Below, piece by piece: positions 13,158 through 25,867 of a stretch of 64,000 bases of DNA. Each line of letters starts with the position of its first letter. Positions within the stretch are counted from its first letter, which is position 1. The notes under the pieces are model-generated. The model was not told the origin of the DNA and ran no database searches. It was given only the letters and a program-made list of their open reading frames with translations. The stretch covers positions 246,836 through 310,835 of the forward strand of contig JAPPPQ010000023.1 in the NCBI GenBank assembly GCA_028817435.1, read 5' to 3'. The stretch is from Deltaproteobacteria bacterium (GTDB taxonomy: Bacteria > Myxococcota_A > UBA9160 > UBA6930). Both the position numbers and the translations under genes were made by a program.

Positions 13158-14264
13158 TCAATTCTTTTCCCTTTCCAGTTGGGAAACCATTGCGAGCCCG
13201 ATGTTTTTGGCCAAAAGGCATGGAATTGCGTTTCCGATTTGCCAGTAGGCCCGCTTCATTGTCCCCGAGAAAATGAAGTCGTCGGGGAAGGTCTGTAGCC
13301 GGGCGAGCTCTCGCGCCGAAATAACTCGATTCTTTTCGTAATGGATGTGAACTCCCCCATGATTCTCTTTGGCGGTCATGGAGGGGACTCCCCGGTATTG
13401 GCGCTTCCATGCGTCACGAAAGGTTTCATACAGGGAGCCGCCGGGTGGAACTCGAGAAATGCGCTCTTCCATCGCACGAGAATGCTTCGTCCATTCGTGA
13501 TTGATGGAGCGGTTGGGAGGGATATCCTTCAAATCGTCAATCGCAGATTCTATTGACAGGTAATCCGCCTTGGCGAGCTGCTCTTTGGGGTATGGGTTGG
13601 GATTTCCGATTCGATTCCCAATGAAAAAAGCCCTGGTTCGCAATTGCGGGACGCCAAAGGTCGCAGCTTCAAGTATTCGGACGCTAGTTCCGCTGTATCC
13701 CAGCGACTCGAATTGTCGCAATATCTCTCGATACACACGGCCTCCCTGCATTGTGAGAATTCCCGGAACATTCTCCATTACGATATACCAAGGGTTTAGA
13801 GATTCAACGACTCTCATGAATTCTCTGAACAGTTGATTCCGTGGATCGTGGGGATTTCTCAATCCTGCAACCGAGAATCCCTGGCACGGAGGGCCGCCGC
13901 AGACAATGTGAACGCATCGCTTCCCTACGATCTTTTTCATCCGCCTGTTTGAGAAATGCTCAATCATCCCTTCGTAGTGAAAGCTCTCCGGGAAATTGCA
14001 CCGGATGGTGCTGGAGGCGTCTCGATCAATCTCGACACTCAAGATCTTGTTCAATCCGGCTTGCTTGAATCCGAGGGAAAGCCCGCCGGCGCCAGAGAAG
14101 ATGTCCACGAAATTGAAAGGCGTTTGCTGCCTGTCCATTCCCGTGGTGTTGATTTCCGTCCAGTTTCGGTTCAGCAGATCGTTGTCGAGTTGCCTTTTGA
14201 GCGTGCTGTACCTGCTGATGGCGTTTTTGGCCCCCGCTTCCCGGGGCTTCAAGATTTTCGGCAT
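13158..14264 (-). CDS. DNA (cytosine-5-)-methyltransferase
   Basis: A 368-residue C5-methyltransferase with the canonical motifs in order: motif I VDIFSGAGGLSLGF (about 53-66), the catalytic motif IV GGPPCQGFSVAGLRNPHDPRN with Cys127, motif VI MENVPGI (163-169), motif VIII RTRAFFIGNR, and motifs IX-X RELARLQTFPDDF and YWQIGNAIP. The variable target-recognition region between VIII and IX is short. The ATG at 14264 has a purine-rich GGGGAGAGG upstream; a longer frame to 14372 runs through GC-rich non-coding DNA and is not used. It protects the host from the convergent nuclease by modifying cytosine in the shared site, which is not known. Confidence 0.95.
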   Translation of the reverse strand: MPKILKPREAGAKNAISRYSTLKRQLDNDLLNRNWTEINTTGMDRQQTPFNFVDIFSGAGGLSLGFKQAGLNKILSVEIDRDASSTIRCNFPESFHYEGMIEHFSNRRMKKIVGKRCVHIVCGGPPCQGFSVAGLRNPHDPRNQLFREFMRVVESLNPWYIVMENVPGILTMQGGRVYREILRQFESLGYSGTSVRILEAATFGVPQLRTRAFFIGNRIGNPNPYPKEQLAKADYLSIESAIDDLKDIPPNRSINHEWTKHSRAMEERISRVPPGGSLYETFRDAWKRQYRGVPSMTAKENHGGVHIHYEKNRVISARELARLQTFPDDFIFSGTMKRAYWQIGNAIPCLLAKNIGLAMVSQLEREKN

Positions 14265-14370
14265 CGAGTGGCCTCTCCCCCTGACTGCTAACCATGGTAT
14301 ACGAATGCCCCCCGAGGCCGCAAGTGCTTGCGGGGCAGGCCCCGTGCTAGCCTGGGGGAGGAGGTTCACC

Positions 14371-15918
14371 ATGGCGAATTACCAGCGAGTGGAAAGCGGG
14401 GCGGAGCCGGGCGGGGTGGGGCGGCGCTATCGCGTCAGCAGCCCGGTGGATTTGCAGCCCATCGGCGAGTTTGAGGCGGCGAGCCGCGAGGCGGTGCGCG
14501 GCGCGGTGGAGCGCGCGCGCAAGGCGCAGCGCAGCTGGGCCGGGCAGAGCTTTGCGGCCCGCGCGGCGCTGATGCAGCGGCTCATCGAGGTGTTCGTGGA
14601 GCGGCAGGACGAGATGATTGACTGCGTGGTGCGCGAAACCGGCAAGGCCCGCGCCGAAGCGCTCGCCATGGAGGTCTTCGCGCCCTGCGTCACCGCCGCC
14701 TACTACGCCAAGCGCGCGGCAGAGTTTCTGCAGCCCGAGCAGCGCACGCCGGCCGGGCTCATGCGCTTTGCCAAGAAGCTCACGCTCATTTACAAGCCGC
14801 TCGGGGTGGTGGGGCTCATTACGCCGTGGAATGCCCCGGTGGTGCTGGCGGTGAACCCGCTGGCCCAGGCGCTCATGGCGGGCAACGCCGTGGTGCACAA
14901 GCCCAGCGAGGTGACGCCTTTCTCCGCCATGCTCATTGAGGAATTCACCCGGGACGCCGGTTTCCCCGAGCACCTTTACCAGGTGCTGCAGGGCGACGGA
15001 CAGACGGGGGCGGATTTGATCGAGGCGGGGGTGGACAAGATCTCCTTCACCGGCTCGGTGGCCACGGGCCGCAAGGTGGGCGAAGCCTGCGGGCGCAATC
15101 TCATTCCGGCCACGCTGGAGCTCGGCGGCAAGGACGCGATGATTGTCTGCGCCGATGCAGATTTGGACCGCGCCGCCGAGGGCGCGGTGCGCGGCGCGTG
15201 CTGGAACAGCGGCCATTACTGCTGCAGCACCGAGCGCGTCTATGTGCCGGAGCCGGTCTACGAGCCCTTTGTGCAAAAGGTGGTGGCGCACGCCTCGGCG
15301 TTGCGGCAGAGCGGCGAAGAGCCCTTCGATGTGGGCGCGGTGTTCTGGGATCGGCAAATGGAGATCATCGAATCGCACATGGCCGATGCCAAGGCGCGCG
15401 GCGCGAAGGTGCTGGTGGGCGGCCGCCGCAATCCCGACCTGCGCGGCAGCTACTTCGAGCCCACCGTGCTGGTGGATGTGAATCACGAAATGCAGATTAT
15501 GCAGCGCGAGACCTTCGGCCCCATTGTCGCCATTCAGAAGGTGCGCGACGAAGACGAGGCGCTGCGCCTGTCCAACGATTCCGAATACGGCTTGGGCGGC
15601 AACATTTGGACCACCGATGTGGAGCGGGGCCTGCGCCTCGCCGCGCAGATGGAAACCGGCGGCGTCTGCATCAACGATATGACCATGACCTACGGCATTC
15701 CCGAAGCGCCCTTCGGCGGCGTGAAATCCAGCGGCATTGGCCAGGTGAACGGCGCGCAGGGCATTCGAGGCTACTGCCACGCGCACCCCATTGTGGTGGA
15801 CCGCAAAACCCGGGGGCCGCTGCAGGGCGGCTACCCCTACACCGAAAAGGGCAGCGCCGGAATGCGCAGGCTCATGCACCTGCTGTTTCGCACCCGCCTC
15901 GGCCGCCTCTTCACCTGA
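14371..15918 (+). CDS. NAD(P)-dependent aldehyde dehydrogenase
   Basis: A 515-residue aldehyde dehydrogenase superfamily member. The Rossmann and active-site elements are in place: LITPWNAPVV (about 149), KPSEVTPFS (177), FTGSVATGRKVG (226), catalytic-base glutamate in LELGGKD (Glu250) and the nucleophile in NSGHYCCSTERV (Cys284), then ETFGPIVA and PFGGVKSSG. A strong GGGGGAGGAGG ribosome site precedes the ATG. It would oxidise an aldehyde to the acid. It starts just right of the restriction island and may be the first gene of the plus-strand run that ends with fatty acyl-CoA reductase at 23.2 kb; a role in fatty aldehyde removal would fit but is inference. Confidence 0.93.
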   Translation: MANYQRVESGAEPGGVGRRYRVSSPVDLQPIGEFEAASREAVRGAVERARKAQRSWAGQSFAARAALMQRLIEVFVERQDEMIDCVVRETGKARAEALAMEVFAPCVTAAYYAKRAAEFLQPEQRTPAGLMRFAKKLTLIYKPLGVVGLITPWNAPVVLAVNPLAQALMAGNAVVHKPSEVTPFSAMLIEEFTRDAGFPEHLYQVLQGDGQTGADLIEAGVDKISFTGSVATGRKVGEACGRNLIPATLELGGKDAMIVCADADLDRAAEGAVRGACWNSGHYCCSTERVYVPEPVYEPFVQKVVAHASALRQSGEEPFDVGAVFWDRQMEIIESHMADAKARGAKVLVGGRRNPDLRGSYFEPTVLVDVNHEMQIMQRETFGPIVAIQKVRDEDEALRLSNDSEYGLGGNIWTTDVERGLRLAAQMETGGVCINDMTMTYGIPEAPFGGVKSSGIGQVNGAQGIRGYCHAHPIVVDRKTRGPLQGGYPYTEKGSAGMRRLMHLLFRTRLGRLFT

Positions 15919-18469: not shown

Positions 18470-19174
18470 ATGAAGCGAAATCTCGTGATTGCCGGTTGCT
18501 TGTTGCTGGCGGGCCTTGCGGCCCTGGTTTTCGAGGTGAATCCGCGCGGCGAAGACGCGCGGCACGGCCTGGTGGGCGCAGACGAGTGGGCCTCCAGGGC
18601 CGTCTGGGCCTGCGACCGGCGCAAGTTGGTGGTGGTGGAAGGCGTGCGCCCGGACCAGAAAATCCCGCCCGCCCGCGCGCAACTCGTCGCCGATCTTCTC
18701 ATGGATCTGATGCGCTACTGCGACCAGGAGATCACCGCCAAGCTCGAGGTCTCCGAGCGCATCACCGTCGCGGCAAACGGCCTGGTGTATGAGGACTATG
18801 TGGTGGGCGGGCCGCTGCCCATCGTCCCCGCCCGCTACGGCGCGCCCACCCGGCGCGAACAGCGCATTTGGGCCGCCGAGCTCGCCAAGCTGGTCAGCGA
18901 GGGCGACCGCCTCTTCCACAGCGACGAGATCGGCAAGAACGGCGTCGCCTGCGCCATGTGCCATCCCCACGCCGTCGGCACCCATCCCGAAACCTATCCC
19001 AAGTTCCAGACGCAGTTGAAGCAGGTGGCGTTGCTGCGCGACATGGTGAACTGGTGCATTGCCAACCCCATGGAGGGCGACGAGCTGGCTCACGACGATC
19101 CGCGCATGAAGGCGCTGGAGGCCTACATCATCGCCCAGCGCGCGGGCAAGGTGCTGGAATCGGGCAAGCACTGA
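18470..19174 (+). CDS. Monoheme c-type cytochrome, membrane-anchored or exported
   Basis: A 234-residue protein starting with a short hydrophobic segment (residues 4-21) that is either a signal peptide or a membrane anchor. One heme motif, CAMCH, lies at 161-165 within LFHSDEIGKNGVACAMCHPHAVGTH. The heme-side architecture recalls SoxA/TsdA-type cytochromes, but the N-terminal 130 residues are not recognisable to me; two other cysteines (Cys48 and Cys84) lie there. GGAGG precedes the ATG. Its position between the metallophosphoesterase and an outer-membrane barrel suggests it passes electrons to or from the diheme protein; that partnership is inferred only from adjacency. Confidence 0.8.
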   Translation: MKRNLVIAGCLLLAGLAALVFEVNPRGEDARHGLVGADEWASRAVWACDRRKLVVVEGVRPDQKIPPARAQLVADLLMDLMRYCDQEITAKLEVSERITVAANGLVYEDYVVGGPLPIVPARYGAPTRREQRIWAAELAKLVSEGDRLFHSDEIGKNGVACAMCHPHAVGTHPETYPKFQTQLKQVALLRDMVNWCIANPMEGDELAHDDPRMKALEAYIIAQRAGKVLESGKH

Positions 19175-20082
19175 TGCAGCCGCGCCCGCGGGACCGCCGG
19201 GCGCGCAGGCTGCGCGCCGCACTGGCGCTGGCCTGCGCCGCGCTGGCGCTTTCGCTGCCGCTGCCCGTAGCGGCGGTGAAGCTGCGGGATGTGCCGCGCG
19301 GCGGCGCGAACCCGGCGGATGCGCCGGACGCGCCGGGCGGCGAATCGAAGGCGCAGAGTCAGCGGGAGCGCCCGCGCAGCCGCGGGCGAGAGCGGGAGCC
19401 GCAGTCCGCGCAGAAGCGGCCGCGCGGTCTCACAATCGGCCTGCGCGCCAGCACTCTGGGTGCCGGGGTGGAGCTCGAGTATCCCATCAACCACTTCATC
19501 CGCGGGCGGCTGCTTTACAACCGGCTCGATGTGGATTTCGAGCAGAAGCTCTCCGGCATTGAATACGATGTGGATCTCGACCTGCAGAGCTACGGGCTGA
19601 TCCTGGACCTGCACCCCTTCGCCGGCAGCCTGCGCCTCAGCGCCGGGGCCATGATGAACGACAACAGCATTGCCGCCAGCGCAATGACCACCGGAAACCG
19701 CACCGTCAACATCGGCGGCCGCGACTACGCAGGCAGCCTGAGCGTGGATGCCGTCTTCGACGATTTCTCCCCCTACGCCGGCATCGGCTGGGGCGGCGGC
19801 AAGCGCCGGGGCTGGAGATACCACTTCGACATCGGCGCCCTCTACCAGCGCAACCCCGAACTCAAATTCAGCGGCATGGCGGGAACGGCTGGAACGCGCT
19901 GTAGCTTCACCGTGAGCGCCAGCGGCGCTGTGGATGTGGTGAGTACCTCCTGCCCCGGCGCTTCCGCTCTGCAAGCCGACCTGCAACGCGACCTCCAAAC
20001 CGAATTCAACGAACTCAAAGACGACGCCCGCGGCTTCAAGTGGTATCCCGTCATCTCCCTCGGCCTCGAATACCGCTTCTGA
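19174..20082 (+). CDS. Predicted outer-membrane beta-barrel protein
   Basis: The 302-residue protein has a signal peptide (basic start, then ALALACAALALSLPLPVAA) and a charged, low-complexity linker rich in Arg/Ser/Pro (about 40-85). About eight amphipathic strands follow (for example TIGLRASTLGAGVELEYPI, RGRLLYNRLDVDFEQK, PYAGIGWGGG), and it ends YPVISLGLEYRF with a C-terminal aromatic, the outer-membrane assembly signal. The pattern resembles OmpW/opacity-type small barrels. Its ATG shares an A with the stop of the cytochrome gene (TGATG), so the two are coupled. No specific function can be named. Confidence 0.75.
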   Translation: MQPRPRDRRARRLRAALALACAALALSLPLPVAAVKLRDVPRGGANPADAPDAPGGESKAQSQRERPRSRGREREPQSAQKRPRGLTIGLRASTLGAGVELEYPINHFIRGRLLYNRLDVDFEQKLSGIEYDVDLDLQSYGLILDLHPFAGSLRLSAGAMMNDNSIAASAMTTGNRTVNIGGRDYAGSLSVDAVFDDFSPYAGIGWGGGKRRGWRYHFDIGALYQRNPELKFSGMAGTAGTRCSFTVSASGAVDVVSTSCPGASALQADLQRDLQTEFNELKDDARGFKWYPVISLGLEYRF

Positions 20083-20106
20083 ATTGCCACGGCGGGAGGT
20101 TTTTGG

Positions 20107-21933
20107 GTGGAGCGCATGGAGCCGGGGGCGCTGCCGGAGGTGGCGGCGGATGCGGAGAGTCCCGATGTGTGGGGCTTTGCGGATACGGCGTTTCGCGTGC
20201 TGCCCAATGGCAGTGTTGTGCTCACGGGCTCGCGCTATCCGCTCTGCGGCGCGGAGCTTGCGGATCTGCTGCCCTGGATGCAGGAGCAGATCGGAATTGA
20301 GTTGCGGCCTGCGGATACGCGTGAGTCGGGCTACCCCACGCGGATTCCCGAGGCGCGGGAGAATCCGGCGCTGCTGCGCGCGCTGCGCGAGTTGCTGCCC
20401 GAGGAGGCCATCTCGACAGCCCCGGAGCTGCGGCTGCGCCACGGCCACGGCCACACGCTGGACGAGATGTGGGCGATCAAATTCGGCGCTGTTTCGCGCG
20501 TGCCGGATCTGGTGGTGTTTCCGCAGCGCGAGGAAGATGTTGAGGCGCTGGTGGCGGCCGCAGCGCGCCACGGCGCTTGCCTGATTCCCTACGGCGGCGG
20601 CACCAATGTCACCAACGCGCTGGCCTGTCCGGAGCGCGAAACGCGCAGCATTATTTCGGTGGATATGCGCCGCCTCGGCCGCATTCTGTGGATTGATCCC
20701 GCCAATCAAATGGCCTGCATCCAGGCCGGCGCAGTGGGACGGCATATTGCGGCGCAGCTCGCCGAGCACGGCTTCACCCTGGGGCACGAGCCCGACAGCA
20801 TTGAGTTCTCCACGCTGGGCGGCTGGATCGCCACCCACGCCAGCGGCATGAAGAAGAATCGCTACGGCAACATCGAGGATCTGGTGCTGGATATGAATGT
20901 GGTGACGGCGCAGGGCGCTTTTTCGCGCAGCGCGGTGACGCCGAGAGAATCGGTGGGCAGCGACGCGCGGCGCTGGCTCTTCGGCTCCGAGGGCGGGCTC
21001 GGCATTGTGACCCGGGCCGTCGTGAAAATCTTTCCGCTGCCGGAAGTGCAGCGCTACGACGCGATTCTCTTTCCGGATTTCGCGCGCGGGCTGGCCTTTC
21101 TGCACGATCTCACCCGCCAGTCCACGCCGGCGGCCAGCGTCCGCCTGATGGACAACCTGCAGTTTCAGCTCGGCCAGGCGTTGAAGCCGCGCGCTGCGGG
21201 TTTTCGCGCGCTGCTGCGCGCCGCCCAGCGCTTTTATGTCACCCGCCTGCGCGGTTTTGATGCGCAGCGCATGGCGGCCTGCACGCTGCTTTTTGAGGGC
21301 GGGCGCGGCGAGGTGCGCCGCCAGCGCCGCGCCGCCCTGCGCATTGCGCGGCGGCATGGCGGCATGGGCGCGGGCGAAGAGAACGGCAGGCGCGGCTACC
21401 AGCTCACCTTCGGCATCGCCTACATCCGCGATTTCGTCATGCGCCACCACATTCTGGCGGAATCTTTCGAGACCTCTGCGCCGTGGAGCGAGGCGCTTTC
21501 CATTTGCGAGGGCGTGAAGCGCCGCATCCGCGCCGAATACCGCGCGCGCCAACTGCCGGGCCACCCCTTCATTACCTGCCGCATCACCCAGCTCTACCAC
21601 ACCGGCGTTTGCATTTACTTTTACTTCGCTTTCCACTGCAAGGGCGTTGCCAACGCCGATGCGGTGTTCGCCGAGCTCGAGCGCGCCGCCCGGGATGAAA
21701 TTTTGCGGCGCGGCGGCTCGCTCTCCCACCACCACGGCGTCGGCAAGATTCGCCAGCGCTTCCTGGGCCGCGTGCTTGAGCCCGCGGCGCTGGCCTGGGC
21801 CGCCGATTTGAAGCGCGCAGTGGACCCCGGCAATGTCTTTGCCGCCGGAAACTTCGCGGCTCATGCAGAGCGGCAGCCCGGGCCGCAGCCCGAACCGGAC
21901 CGGACGCAGGCGCGCGCGGGCCGCGCCGAGTGA
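20107..21933 (+). CDS. Alkyl-dihydroxyacetonephosphate synthase-like FAD enzyme
   Basis: The 608-residue protein strongly resembles animal AGPS, which swaps the acyl chain of acyl-DHAP for a fatty alcohol and so makes the ether bond. The FAD domain shows IPYGGGTNVTNAL, GHEPDSIEFSTLGGWIAT and ASGMKKNRYGNIEDLV. The cap domain has RLMDNLQFQLGQALKP and SFETSAPWSEA. The active site carries CRITQLYHTGVCIYFYF (the catalytic tyrosine region) and SLSHHHGVGK, with three histidines at 541-543. A GTG start follows GGGAGG. It overlaps the fatty acyl-CoA reductase gene by four bases, coupling the two steps of ether-lipid formation. The C-terminal 25 residues are extra and disordered-looking. Confidence 0.9.
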   Translation: MERMEPGALPEVAADAESPDVWGFADTAFRVLPNGSVVLTGSRYPLCGAELADLLPWMQEQIGIELRPADTRESGYPTRIPEARENPALLRALRELLPEEAISTAPELRLRHGHGHTLDEMWAIKFGAVSRVPDLVVFPQREEDVEALVAAAARHGACLIPYGGGTNVTNALACPERETRSIISVDMRRLGRILWIDPANQMACIQAGAVGRHIAAQLAEHGFTLGHEPDSIEFSTLGGWIATHASGMKKNRYGNIEDLVLDMNVVTAQGAFSRSAVTPRESVGSDARRWLFGSEGGLGIVTRAVVKIFPLPEVQRYDAILFPDFARGLAFLHDLTRQSTPAASVRLMDNLQFQLGQALKPRAAGFRALLRAAQRFYVTRLRGFDAQRMAACTLLFEGGRGEVRRQRRAALRIARRHGGMGAGEENGRRGYQLTFGIAYIRDFVMRHHILAESFETSAPWSEALSICEGVKRRIRAEYRARQLPGHPFITCRITQLYHTGVCIYFYFAFHCKGVANADAVFAELERAARDEILRRGGSLSHHHGVGKIRQRFLGRVLEPAALAWAADLKRAVDPGNVFAAGNFAAHAERQPGPQPEPDRTQARAGRAE

Positions 21934-23198
21934 GCGCCGCGCCGCCCCGCGGCCGGGAAGTCCTGCTCACGGGCGCCACCGGTTTTCTCGGCAAGGTGCT
22001 GTTGCGCCAACTGCTAGAGCAGGCCGATGCACTGGGCATCGCCCGCATCCACGCGCTGGTGCGTCCGGCTTCCCCGGCGGCCGAGGCGCGCTTTGCGCGC
22101 AGCCTGCGGCGCGCGGCCTGCTTCCACGGGCTGCGCCCGGAATTGCTGCAGCGTTTGCAGGTTCTGCCGGGCGATCTCTCCCTTCCGCACTGCGGCATTG
22201 CCCCCGCGCAGCGCGAAGAACTGCGCGCCCGCGCAACTCATGTGATTCACGCCGCCGCCGCCGTGGACTTCGATCTGCCCCTGGGCGAGGCGGCGCAGGC
22301 CAATGTGGCGACGGCGCTCGAAGTGCTCGAGCTTGCGCGGAGTATGCGGCGGCTCGAATCGCTGCTGCACATCTCCACCGCCTATGTGACACCGCACCCC
22401 GGCGCGGGCGTGGCCATCAAAGAAGCGCCTGCGCCGCTGCCGGAATCCGCCGAGCTCTTGTGGCAGCGCATCCGCAGCGGCCGCGCCGCAGAGCGCGCGC
22501 TGCTCGCCGCCTCAAAACATCCCAACACCTACACCTTCTCGAAGTGCCTGGCCGAGCAACTGCTGCTCGCGCGCGGGCGCGAATTGCCGCTTCGCATTCT
22601 GCGCCCTTCCATTATCTCCGCCAGCTTCCGCCATCCCGCCCCCGGCTGGATAGACAGCGCCGCCGCCTTCGCCGCCTTCGTCGCGCTGATCGGCCTCGGC
22701 CGTTTGCGCGCGGTGGTGGCGCATCCCAAAGCGCGCCTGGATCTGATCCCGGTGGATTGGGTGGCCGGGCGCATTCTGCACGCCATGTCGCTGCCCGCCG
22801 AAGCCCCCGCGCCGCTGCTGCACATCACCGCCGGGCCGCGCAACAGCCCCAGCATTGAGGAATGCCGCGACCGCATTCTCGCCTTCTTTCGCGCGCATCC
22901 CACCGAGCGCCGCCCCGCCATCCGCTACCTGGGGCCGCCGGGGTTGCGCTTCGCCGCGGCCCACCGCCTGCACCACGAACTCCCGCTCCGGCTGCGCGGC
23001 CTGCGCTCGCCCCCTGCGCGCCGCCGCGCCCGCCTGCTGCTCGGCCAACTCGAGCAGCTGAACCGCGCCTTTCCCTACTTCACCCAGCGCACCTTTCACT
23101 TCGAGAGCAGTATGCCCCTCGACCTGCCGGGATTCGATCCGCGCGAGTATGTGAGCACCGTATCGCGCGGCGTTTCCCGGCACATTCTGCGGCGTTGA
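21930..23198 (+). CDS. Fatty acyl-CoA reductase (alcohol-forming, male-sterility/NAD_binding_4 type)
   Basis: A 422-residue extended short-chain dehydrogenase. The NADPH loop GATGFLGK lies at 15-22, the substrate-domain signature HISTAYV at 147-153, and the active site is Tyr201-x3-Lys205 in YTFSK, followed by LRPSIISAS. This is the pattern of FAR enzymes that reduce fatty acyl-CoA to fatty alcohol with two NADPH, and of the related thioester reductase domains. The GTG start overlaps the stop of the alkyl-DHAP synthase gene (GTGA). Fatty alcohol is precisely the co-substrate of that enzyme, so the two genes make biochemical sense as a unit. Confidence 0.85.
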   Translation: MSAAPPRGREVLLTGATGFLGKVLLRQLLEQADALGIARIHALVRPASPAAEARFARSLRRAACFHGLRPELLQRLQVLPGDLSLPHCGIAPAQREELRARATHVIHAAAAVDFDLPLGEAAQANVATALEVLELARSMRRLESLLHISTAYVTPHPGAGVAIKEAPAPLPESAELLWQRIRSGRAAERALLAASKHPNTYTFSKCLAEQLLLARGRELPLRILRPSIISASFRHPAPGWIDSAAAFAAFVALIGLGRLRAVVAHPKARLDLIPVDWVAGRILHAMSLPAEAPAPLLHITAGPRNSPSIEECRDRILAFFRAHPTERRPAIRYLGPPGLRFAAAHRLHHELPLRLRGLRSPPARRRARLLLGQLEQLNRAFPYFTQRTFHFESSMPLDLPGFDPREYVSTVSRGVSRHILRR

Positions 23199-23217
23199 TT
23201 GGGGTTTTTGCGCTGGG

Positions 23218-23290
23218 TGGGCCCTCCAGGATTCGAACCTGGGACCTACCGGTTATGAGCCGGCTGCTCTGACCGCTGAGCTAAGGGCCC
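23218..23290 (-). tRNA. tRNA with CAU anticodon, probably tRNA-Ile2 (lysidine type)
   Basis: The minus strand folds into a full 73-base cloverleaf. The acceptor stem has seven pairs (GGGCCCU with AGGGCCC) and discriminator A at 23218. The D arm has GCUC/GAGC, the anticodon stem GCCGG/CCGGU holds loop CUCAUAA, and the T arm is CCAGG-UUCGAAU-CCUGG. The anticodon is CAU. The 5' end (GGGCCCTTAGCTCAG) and the wobble pair at the top of the anticodon stem match E. coli tRNA-Ile(CAU) better than elongator tRNA-Met, so lysidine-modified tRNA-Ile2 is preferred. The CCA end is not encoded. Confidence 0.93.
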
Positions 23291-23330: not shown

Positions 23331-24710
23331 ATGGCTGCCATGCCTGCCCCCGCCGCGCCCGCAGATTCCGCGAATCCGCACATCGCCGCCGTCATTGGCG
23401 GCGCCACGGCTGGTGCCGAGGTGGCGGGGCGGCTGGCCGGGCGCGGCGTTCGCGTGGTCGTCTTCGAGATGAACCCGCGCCCCTACGGCAAGATCGAGGA
23501 CGGCCTGCCGCGCTGGCACGAGGGCCTGCGCCGGAAGGAATACGAGAACATCGCCTCCAAGCTGGCGCGCCCCGGCGTGGAATTCGTCCCCCGCACCCGG
23601 GTGGGCGCAGATCTCGATTTCGACGAGTTGTGCCGCGATTGGGGCTTTTCGGCGGTGGTGCTGGCCAACGGCGCATGGCGCGACAGGCCGCTGCCCGTCC
23701 CCGGCGCGGAGGAAATGGTGGGGCGCGGCCTCATTTATCAAAACCCCTTCATTATCTGGTTCAATCACTCTGGCGAATCGGACTACGCGGGCGAGCGCTT
23801 CGAGCCGCAGGACGATGTGCTGGTGGTGGGCGGCGGCCTGGCCTCTATTGATGTGGTGAAGGTGCTCATGCTCGAAACCACCCGGGCGGCGCTGGCCGGC
23901 CGGGGCATTCGCGCCGAGATGCTCGAGCTGGAGGTGAAGGGCATTCCCCGGGTGCTGGCGCAGCACGGCATTGCTTTCGGCGATCTGGGGCTGTCCGGCT
24001 GCACGCTCTTTTACCGGCGGCGCGCAGAAGATATGCCGCTGGTGGAGATTCCCGAAAACGCCGCCGCAAAGCTCCGCGACAAGATGCTGACCGCGCGCGG
24101 GCGGCTGCTGCAAAAGGCCATGGACAAGTATCTCTTCCGCTTCGAGCCGCTCTCCGCTCCAGAATCGCTGATTATCAAGGAGGGCCGCGTGGCGGGTCTG
24201 CGCTTGCAGCGCACCCGCATTGAGAACGGCCGCGTGGTTGGCGCCGGAGAACACTACGAGCGCCGCGGCGCTTATGTGATCAGCTCCATCGGCTCCATTC
24301 CCGAACCCATTCCGGGCATTGGAATGAAGGGCGAGCTCTTCGATTTTTCGGACTGGGAAATTGGCCGCCTGCCGGGCTACCCCAACCTGTTTTCTGTCGG
24401 CAATGTGGTCACGGGCAAGGGCAACATCGTGGCTTCGCGCAAGCACGCCGGGCAGGTCTGCGAGGCGGCAATTGAATCTTTTCTCGGGCTCTCCGGCGAG
24501 CACGGCGCAGAGGCGCAACTGGCGGGCGCGGATCCGGCGCTGGCCGCCCGCGCCGAGGCCATTGCCGACGAAATCGGCCGCGCCGCCAGGCCCTCGCCGC
24601 AGGCAGCGCAGGCCATTTTCGAGCGGGTGCGCGCGCGGCAGCAGGCCGTGGGATACCGGGGCGACCTGCAGAGCTGGCTCGCCGAAGTGACTCCGCCGGA
24701 TTTCGCGTAG
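23331..24710 (+). CDS. FAD/NAD(P)-dependent oxidoreductase (ferredoxin-NADP reductase/GltD-like)
   Basis: A 459-residue two-nucleotide-domain oxidoreductase. The FAD-binding segment AAVIGGATAGAEVAGRLAGRGVRVVVFE lacks the strict GxGxxG but keeps its position (about 19-46). The second Rossmann motif, VLVVGGGLASIDVVK, lies near 165, and the C-terminal FAD contact reads LFSVGNVVTGKGNIVASRKH. It resembles adrenodoxin-reductase/glutamate-synthase-small-subunit folds that move electrons between NADPH and an iron-sulfur protein. The start is at 23331 or three codons later. Its stop overlaps the GTG of the AICAR transformylase by one base; that pairing is unexplained and is the best clue to its role. 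Confidence 0.82.
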   Translation: MAAMPAPAAPADSANPHIAAVIGGATAGAEVAGRLAGRGVRVVVFEMNPRPYGKIEDGLPRWHEGLRRKEYENIASKLARPGVEFVPRTRVGADLDFDELCRDWGFSAVVLANGAWRDRPLPVPGAEEMVGRGLIYQNPFIIWFNHSGESDYAGERFEPQDDVLVVGGGLASIDVVKVLMLETTRAALAGRGIRAEMLELEVKGIPRVLAQHGIAFGDLGLSGCTLFYRRRAEDMPLVEIPENAAAKLRDKMLTARGRLLQKAMDKYLFRFEPLSAPESLIIKEGRVAGLRLQRTRIENGRVVGAGEHYERRGAYVISSIGSIPEPIPGIGMKGELFDFSDWEIGRLPGYPNLFSVGNVVTGKGNIVASRKHAGQVCEAAIESFLGLSGEHGAEAQLAGADPALAARAEAIADEIGRAARPSPQAAQAIFERVRARQQAVGYRGDLQSWLAEVTPPDFA

Positions 24711-25867
24711 TGGACGAGCTGCGCTACGGAATCAACCCGCACCAGCGTTTTCACGCGGCGGAGGCATTGCATGGGAGCGCGCCGGTGCGCGTGCTGAACG
24801 GCAAAACCTCCTTCATCAACTGGCTCGACGCGCTGAACGCCTGGCAACTGGTGCGCGAAGCCCGCGCAGCCACGGGATTGCCGGCGGCGGCATCTTTCAA
24901 GCATGTGTCGCCGGCGGGCGCAGCGCTGGCCGTGCCGCTTTCTCCCGGCCTCGCCCGCAGCTACGAGGCCGAAGGCCTCGAGCTCAGCCCGGCGGCCACT
25001 GCCTATGTGCGCGCCCGGGGCGCAGATCCCAAGTGCTCCTTTGGCGATTTCGCGGCGCTCTCGGAAGAATTGGATTTGGAAACCGCTCGCGTGTTGCGTG
25101 GCGTGATCTCCGACGGCGTAATTGCGCCGGGCTTTGCGCCCGGTGCGCTTGAAATTCTGAAGCAGAAAAAGCGCGGCGCTTTCATTGTGATGCAGGCCGA
25201 TGCGGATTTCGAGCCGCCGGAGCGCGAGAGCCGCGAGGTTTTCGGCATACGCCTGGTGCAGGACCGTAACGCGCGCATTCCCGCCGAATCCGATCTCTCG
25301 CAGGTGGTGTGCGGCGCGCTCAGCCCCGAGGCGAAGCGCGATTTGCTGCTGGGCCTGGCCGCCATCAAATTCACCCAGTCCAATTCCATGGGCTTTGTGC
25401 TGGGCGGGCAGACCATCGGCATTGGCGCAGGGCAGCAGAGCCGCGTGGATTGCACCCGGCTGGCTGCCGGCAAGGCCGATCTCTGGCGGTTGCGCAGCCA
25501 TCCCAAGGCGCTGGGCCTGCGCTTCCGCTCAGAGGTGAAGCGGCAAGAGCGAATCAACTGGCGCGTCCGCTACCTGGAGGGCGATTTGGACTCTGGCGAG
25601 GCCCGCGCATTGGCGGCGGCGCTGGAAAAACCCGCCGAGCCGCTCGGCTTGGAGGAACGCCGCGCGTGGCTGGCGCGGGAAGAGGACATTGCGCTGGTCT
25701 CCGACGCCTTCATTCCCTTTCGCGACAACATTGATCTCGCCGCGCGCCACGGCGTCCGCTTTGTGGCCGAGCACGGCGGCAGCGCGCGCAGCGGCGAAAT
25801 TGAATCCGCCTGCCGCGAGCATGGCATTGCGCTGGTGCGCACCGGGCTGCGGCTCTTTCATCACTGA
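24710..25867 (+). CDS. Stand-alone AICAR transformylase domain protein (PurH C-terminal domain only)
   Basis: This 385-residue protein covers only the formyltransferase half of PurH and has no IMP cyclohydrolase domain. Family motifs are intact: LRYGINPHQ (4-12), FKHVSPAGAA with the catalytic Lys64-His65, KFTQSNSMGF around Asn225, GIGAGQQSRVD, DAFIPFRDNID and the C-terminal GLRLFHH. Residues about 258-290 (WRLRSHPKALGLRFRSEVKR) form an insertion known from the long, eukaryote-like AICARFT type. It would formylate AICAR with 10-formyl-THF. The GTG start overlaps the oxidoreductase stop. It may supplement or replace bifunctional PurH, or act on another amide; the sequence does not decide. Confidence 0.85.
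   Translation: MDELRYGINPHQRFHAAEALHGSAPVRVLNGKTSFINWLDALNAWQLVREARAATGLPAAASFKHVSPAGAALAVPLSPGLARSYEAEGLELSPAATAYVRARGADPKCSFGDFAALSEELDLETARVLRGVISDGVIAPGFAPGALEILKQKKRGAFIVMQADADFEPPERESREVFGIRLVQDRNARIPAESDLSQVVCGALSPEAKRDLLLGLAAIKFTQSNSMGFVLGGQTIGIGAGQQSRVDCTRLAAGKADLWRLRSHPKALGLRFRSEVKRQERINWRVRYLEGDLDSGEARALAAALEKPAEPLGLEERRAWLAREEDIALVSDAFIPFRDNIDLAARHGVRFVAEHGGSARSGEIESACREHGIALVRTGLRLFHH

Follow-up and report, generated by a model that had tools for sequence, protein, structure and literature searches.

What would two overlapping genes make in an uncultured bacterium, when one resembles the animal alkyldihydroxyacetonephosphate synthase (AGPS) and the other a fatty acyl-CoA reductase (FAR)? 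The genes lie in the window, that is, the whole stretch of 64,000 nucleotides that was analysed, and belong to a genome of 2.80 Mb in 67 contigs that is 92% complete. The host organism is a member of the Myxococcota and of the same family as the MAG UBA6930; in our own reading of the names of its relatives, it falls outside the classical myxobacterial orders. Comparison of the sequences indicates that AGPS and FAR probably constitute a two-gene ether-lipid cassette, which makes the alkyl ether bond. The features of the locus are collected in Table 1.

Table 1. Features of the AGPS/FAR locus, in positions of the window
Feature	Position	Strand	Remarks
Shine-Dalgarno-like GGGAGG	20094-20099	+	7 nt upstream of the AGPS GTG
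AGPS gene (alkyldihydroxyacetonephosphate synthase)	20107-21933, including stop	+	608 aa; GTG start at 20107
AGPS/FAR start/stop overlap GTGA	21930-21933	+	read from the sequence
FAR gene (putative alcohol-forming fatty acyl-CoA reductase)	21930-23198, including stop	+	422 aa; stand-alone
tRNA-Met(CAT)	23216-23290	-	starts 17 nt past the end of FAR

Both open reading frames are intact and lie on the same strand, where a sequence-only reading of this DNA had placed them. The overlap described in that reading is present as GAGTGAGCG, in which the GTG of FAR occupies positions 21930-21932 and the TGA of AGPS positions 21931-21933. A gene at 19174-20082, for which no Pfam match was found, ends 24 nt before AGPS and may share the transcript of the pair. 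Downstream, the closeness of the tRNA gene to FAR means that the pair is bounded and that there is no space for an acyltransferase remnant. The seven flanking genes tested (14.4-25.9 kb) are unmatched in all 22 orthologous loci that were examined for them, and the conserved unit thus consists of AGPS and FAR only.

AGPS is composed of a FAD_binding_4 domain (residues 133-271) and a FAD-oxidase_C domain (residues 311-581), as identified by a Pfam scan. Its match to guinea-pig AGPS (PDB 4bby; E=1.2e-167, 562 bits) places residues 5-582 onto residues 79-656 with 44.4% identity across 576 aligned residues, and this full-length match bears out the AGPS identity proposed earlier. The guinea-pig numbering was anchored on the solved variants 4bc7 and 4bca, which differ at R419 and Y578, respectively. 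In the alignment, guinea-pig R419, R515, C576, Y578 and H615-617 correspond to R346, R441, C502, Y504 and H541-543 of the window protein. All of the mapped catalytic residues are therefore kept, among them those of the HHH and tyrosine motifs that the sequence-only reading had pointed out, and careful alignment showed none to be replaced. The same residues are conserved in the orthologues of related genomes, full-length AGPS being present at 23 loci in 117 relatives (the window's included), of which the other 22 are 48-64% identical to the window protein. The mapped tyrosine and arginines are presumably the equivalents of Tyr508, Arg352 and Arg447 of Dictyostelium AGPS. In the Dictyostelium enzyme, these three residues matter for catalysis (PMC3509576).

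FAR is a full-length protein that matches the Pfam family NAD_binding_4 with 215 bits, and its best solved relative is the fatty acyl-CoA reductase 7eoz (E=5.7e-23). It carries the cofactor loop TGATGFLGK of the GxxGxxG type, the motif STAYV and the YxxxK motif YTFSK; positions G15, G18, G21, Y201 and K205 are invariant in the 12 sequences compared. The family match and these motifs are in agreement with the alcohol-forming acyl-CoA reductase that had been predicted. The C-terminal Sterile domain of eukaryotic FARs was not detected in the window FAR (Pfam scan, E<=0.001); the layout of the protein does not appear to be of the eukaryotic type, and it may still be alcohol-forming.

By combining these assignments, it is possible to propose a sequence of reactions. 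With NAD(P)H as the reductant, FAR would convert a fatty acyl-CoA into a fatty alcohol. In the next step, the FAD enzyme AGPS would exchange the acyl group of 1-acyl-DHAP for this alcohol, giving 1-O-alkyl-DHAP, which general enzymes would reduce and acylate into alkyl-acyl phospholipids. Translational coupling through the overlap would hold the two proteins in step.

The association of the two genes extends far beyond the window. FAR is located directly downstream of AGPS in 44 of the 83 usable related loci, those with enough downstream sequence, and the two genes are therefore not chance neighbours. This linkage, kept in many genomes, supports the earlier idea that FAR could make the alcohol used by AGPS. 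A fusion of FAR to an acyltransferase with the motifs HRSYxDFL and FFIEGxRSR is seen at 34 of these 44 loci; FAR is unfused at three and has another tail at seven. At the fused loci, the three enzymes that act early in ether-lipid synthesis would be united (AGPS, FAR and a GNPAT-like acyltransferase). The AGPS loci without a FAR neighbour yielded one identified flanking ORF, found in Polyangium fumosum (L102:9748-11199), where AGPS is followed by a stand-alone acyltransferase that is a copy of the one fused to FAR elsewhere. The existence of fused, FAR-only and acyltransferase-only arrangements shows that the parts of the cassette, which occurs in many phyla, are modular. At six Spirochaete loci (L105, L106, L111, L114, L116 and L119), the FAR adjoining AGPS has a C-terminal tail of another kind, about 200-280 aa long; the HRSYxDF motif is absent from these six tails, and no PF01553 match was found in that of L105.

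The window FAR stops at the conserved RHIL, exactly where its relatives run on into the GNPAT-like acyltransferase. A frameshift artefact was considered as the origin of the unfused form and was rejected: the protein ends at a natural domain border, the tRNA begins 17 nt on, and a search of the locus with the acyltransferase model was negative. Unfused FARs are present in the window, in two genomes of the same family (G001 and G002) and in G049. On the FAR tree, a quick tree with weak deep support, they do not form a single group and require three changes. Repeated loss of the acyltransferase would be the simplest reading of this scatter, albeit an unproven one.

Where, then, might acyl-DHAP come from? 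The genome was searched family by family for the enzymes of the pathway, which included the search for a DHAP acyltransferase that the sequence-only reading had proposed. The locus has no dedicated enzyme, and none turned up in the rest of the genome, which is 92% complete. The three PF01553 proteins of the genome are a PlsC-like protein, a protein in a ketoacyl-synthase cluster and a PlsB homologue of 896 aa, which is encoded on another contig, has a GPAT_C domain and scores under the NCBIfam PlsB cut-off. The profile of the fused acyltransferase finds the PlsB homologue only, and no other glycerol-phosphate acyltransferase was detected, which leaves this protein as the sole candidate for making acyl-DHAP. 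This protein is common to most of the relatives checked, including one that has neither AGPS nor FAR, and is apparently a housekeeping enzyme. PlsY was not found in the genome, so the PlsB homologue should not be called a spare enzyme. Its motif I, HRSYCDFL, was tried as a signature of DHAP acyltransferases and rejected, since the PlsB homologues of relatives carry HRSY(F/C)DF, including that of the same-family genome G005, which lacks AGPS and FAR.

As the GNPAT-like domain is absent, acyl-DHAP would have to be supplied either by the PlsB homologue or by an enzyme in the missing 8% or so of the assembly. It may tentatively be proposed, as a rather doubtful possibility, that the lineage dropped the GNPAT-like domain of FAR and that its single PlsB-like enzyme makes both acyl-glycerol-3-phosphate and acyl-DHAP. 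If so, AGPS alone would set the ether content, and no dedicated DHAP acyltransferase would be required. A genome in which AGPS is present, and in which neither ElbD nor a dedicated acyltransferase was found, would represent a clean case for determining which bacterial enzyme makes acyl-DHAP. Alternatively, the cassette might be decaying, with the acyltransferase lost, AGPS left with no substrate and the genes disappearing or being re-purposed. The lack of an acyltransferase both at the locus and in the rest of the assembly, the occurrence of the unfused state on separate branches and the absence of both genes from G005 fit such a decay, whereas the intact ORFs, the complete set of catalytic residues and the tight coupling overlap speak against it and make it unlikely.

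The reading of the pair as an ether-lipid cassette also has to be weighed against another use of the alcohol. The genome encodes two WS/DGAT enzymes, which could also use the fatty alcohol, and FAR is not fused to an acyltransferase by which it would be tied to the ether-lipid route; FAR might thus chiefly feed wax-ester synthesis, its link to AGPS being secondary. This is improbable, as the WS/DGAT genes reside on other contigs (C7 and C22), away from that of AGPS and FAR, whereas FAR overlaps AGPS and accompanies it at the paired loci, which come from many phyla.

The AGPS motifs call for caution. A second group of AGPS-like flavoproteins in the phylum (L027-L033), about 32% identical to the window protein, has CLYF and SHHHGVG and keeps all the mapped catalytic residues, among them the equivalents of R346, R441, Y504 and HHH541-543; the label AGPS may too readily be attached to its members. 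Because these paralogues retain both motifs, the HHH and the CIYF tyrosine motifs, on which the sequence-only reading had relied, are not diagnostic and are insufficient by themselves; the full-length match identifies the protein. That it is instead another FAD-linked oxidase of the superfamily (GlcD- or D-lactate-dehydrogenase-like) is highly improbable: despite the shared residues of the paralogues and a first NCBIfam listing as GlcD, far under the cut-off, the protein is 44% identical to animal AGPS from end to end, scores 562 bits, the best non-AGPS structure reaching 93, and belongs to a family whose genes are linked to FAR and GNPAT-like domains.

In the sequence-only reading, eukaryote-like ether-lipid synthesis had been considered rare in aerobic bacteria and known chiefly from myxobacteria. 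The host, itself one of the Myxococcota, is no exception to this; moreover, orthologues of AGPS are widespread. When public genomes were scanned, over 540 AGPS relatives from many phyla were obtained, with full-length orthologues in Acidobacteriota, Gemmatimonadota, Spirochaetota, Chloroflexota, Deinococcota and others; AGPS homologues across many phyla have been reported previously as well (PMC11868695). In the AGPS trees, the window falls into a set of five with 99% support, together with L039, from the same order, and L061, L062 and L064, the records of which are labelled Proteobacteria and Gemmatimonadetes. The last three also stand beside the window in the FAR tree, with 80% support. Common descent of AGPS in three genomes of the same family was rejected (AU p = 0.001; the L057 branch is long). 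These trees suggest that the cassette has moved between lineages, a reading to be taken with caution because of MAG labels and binning errors.

Which type of ether lipid would be formed? The plasmanyl desaturase was searched for as PF10520 (CarF/PEDS1, TMEM189), and the genome, at 92% completeness, gave no match, although 8 of 22 genomes were positive in the same search. The PF09989 protein of the anaerobic plasmalogen route (PlsA/Ger) was likewise not found in the genome, with positive controls. Of the "alkyl or plasmalogen-type lipids" suggested earlier, the alkyl ethers stand as a prediction, and the plasmalogens are unsupported. An ElbD-like second FAR was not found either: the FAR model has one match in the genome, and the other PF07993 matches are ORFs of single-domain size (359 and 378 aa). 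A genome may carry homologues of the ether-lipid gene elbD and still show no detectable ether lipids (PMC11868695). CarF is largely restricted among myxobacteria to the Cystobacterineae (PMC9131029). CarF/PEDS1-like PF10520 proteins were observed in two Myxococcota relatives, the same-family genome G001 (G001:C8:125941-126432, L180) and G022 (G022:C6:52791-53303, L181), and most of their conserved histidines align with those of an Archangium homologue. With AGPS, an unfused FAR and PF10520, G001 could be plasmalogen-competent.

The M. xanthus operon MXAN_1676-1675-1674 encodes AGPS followed by a FAR-GNPAT protein, and loss of MXAN_1676 lowers the ether lipids slightly (PMC9131029). The window, in the same phylum, resembles this operon in that AGPS is directly followed by a gene with a FAR domain. 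It differs in the following: 1) FAR of M. xanthus is part of a fusion with a GNPAT-like acyltransferase, whereas the window FAR is stand-alone; 2) an epimerase-like third gene comes next in M. xanthus, and the opposite-strand tRNA in the window; 3) M. xanthus has a dominant ElbD route and CarF, neither of which was found in the window genome. The fused FAR-acyltransferase layout of the relatives is that of MXAN_1675. The fused cassettes of Myxococcota, Gemmatimonadota, Sericytochromatia and others (L037, L061, L062, L064, L093 and L099) share with the window the order AGPS then FAR in the same orientation, and three of them (L061, L062 and L064) group with it in the AGPS tree, less firmly in the FAR tree; unlike the window, all six have the acyltransferase within the FAR polypeptide. 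When compared with the animal peroxisomal FAR1/GNPAT/AGPS set, the window AGPS is 44% identical with its mapped catalytic residues kept, and its chemistry is presumed to be the same (mechanism in PMC3509576). In contrast to the animal set, no GNPAT equivalent was found in the genome, FAR is without the Sterile domain, and there are two overlapping genes and no organelle. The window pair thus belongs to a known kind of gene cluster and looks functional, its one informative difference being the lack of an acyltransferase. It extends the animal-like myxobacterial ether-lipid route to an uncultured Myxococcota lineage outside the classical myxobacteria.

Two further genes of the window deserve mention. 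The gene at 24710-25867 encodes a stand-alone AICAR formyltransferase (NF005492, 483 bits), in which the IMP cyclohydrolase portion of PurH is lacking. The translation of the ORF at 13158-14372 on the minus strand resembles, as judged by eye, a C5 cytosine DNA methyltransferase with the motif PPCQGFS, and this ORF adjoins an aldehyde-dehydrogenase-like ORF.
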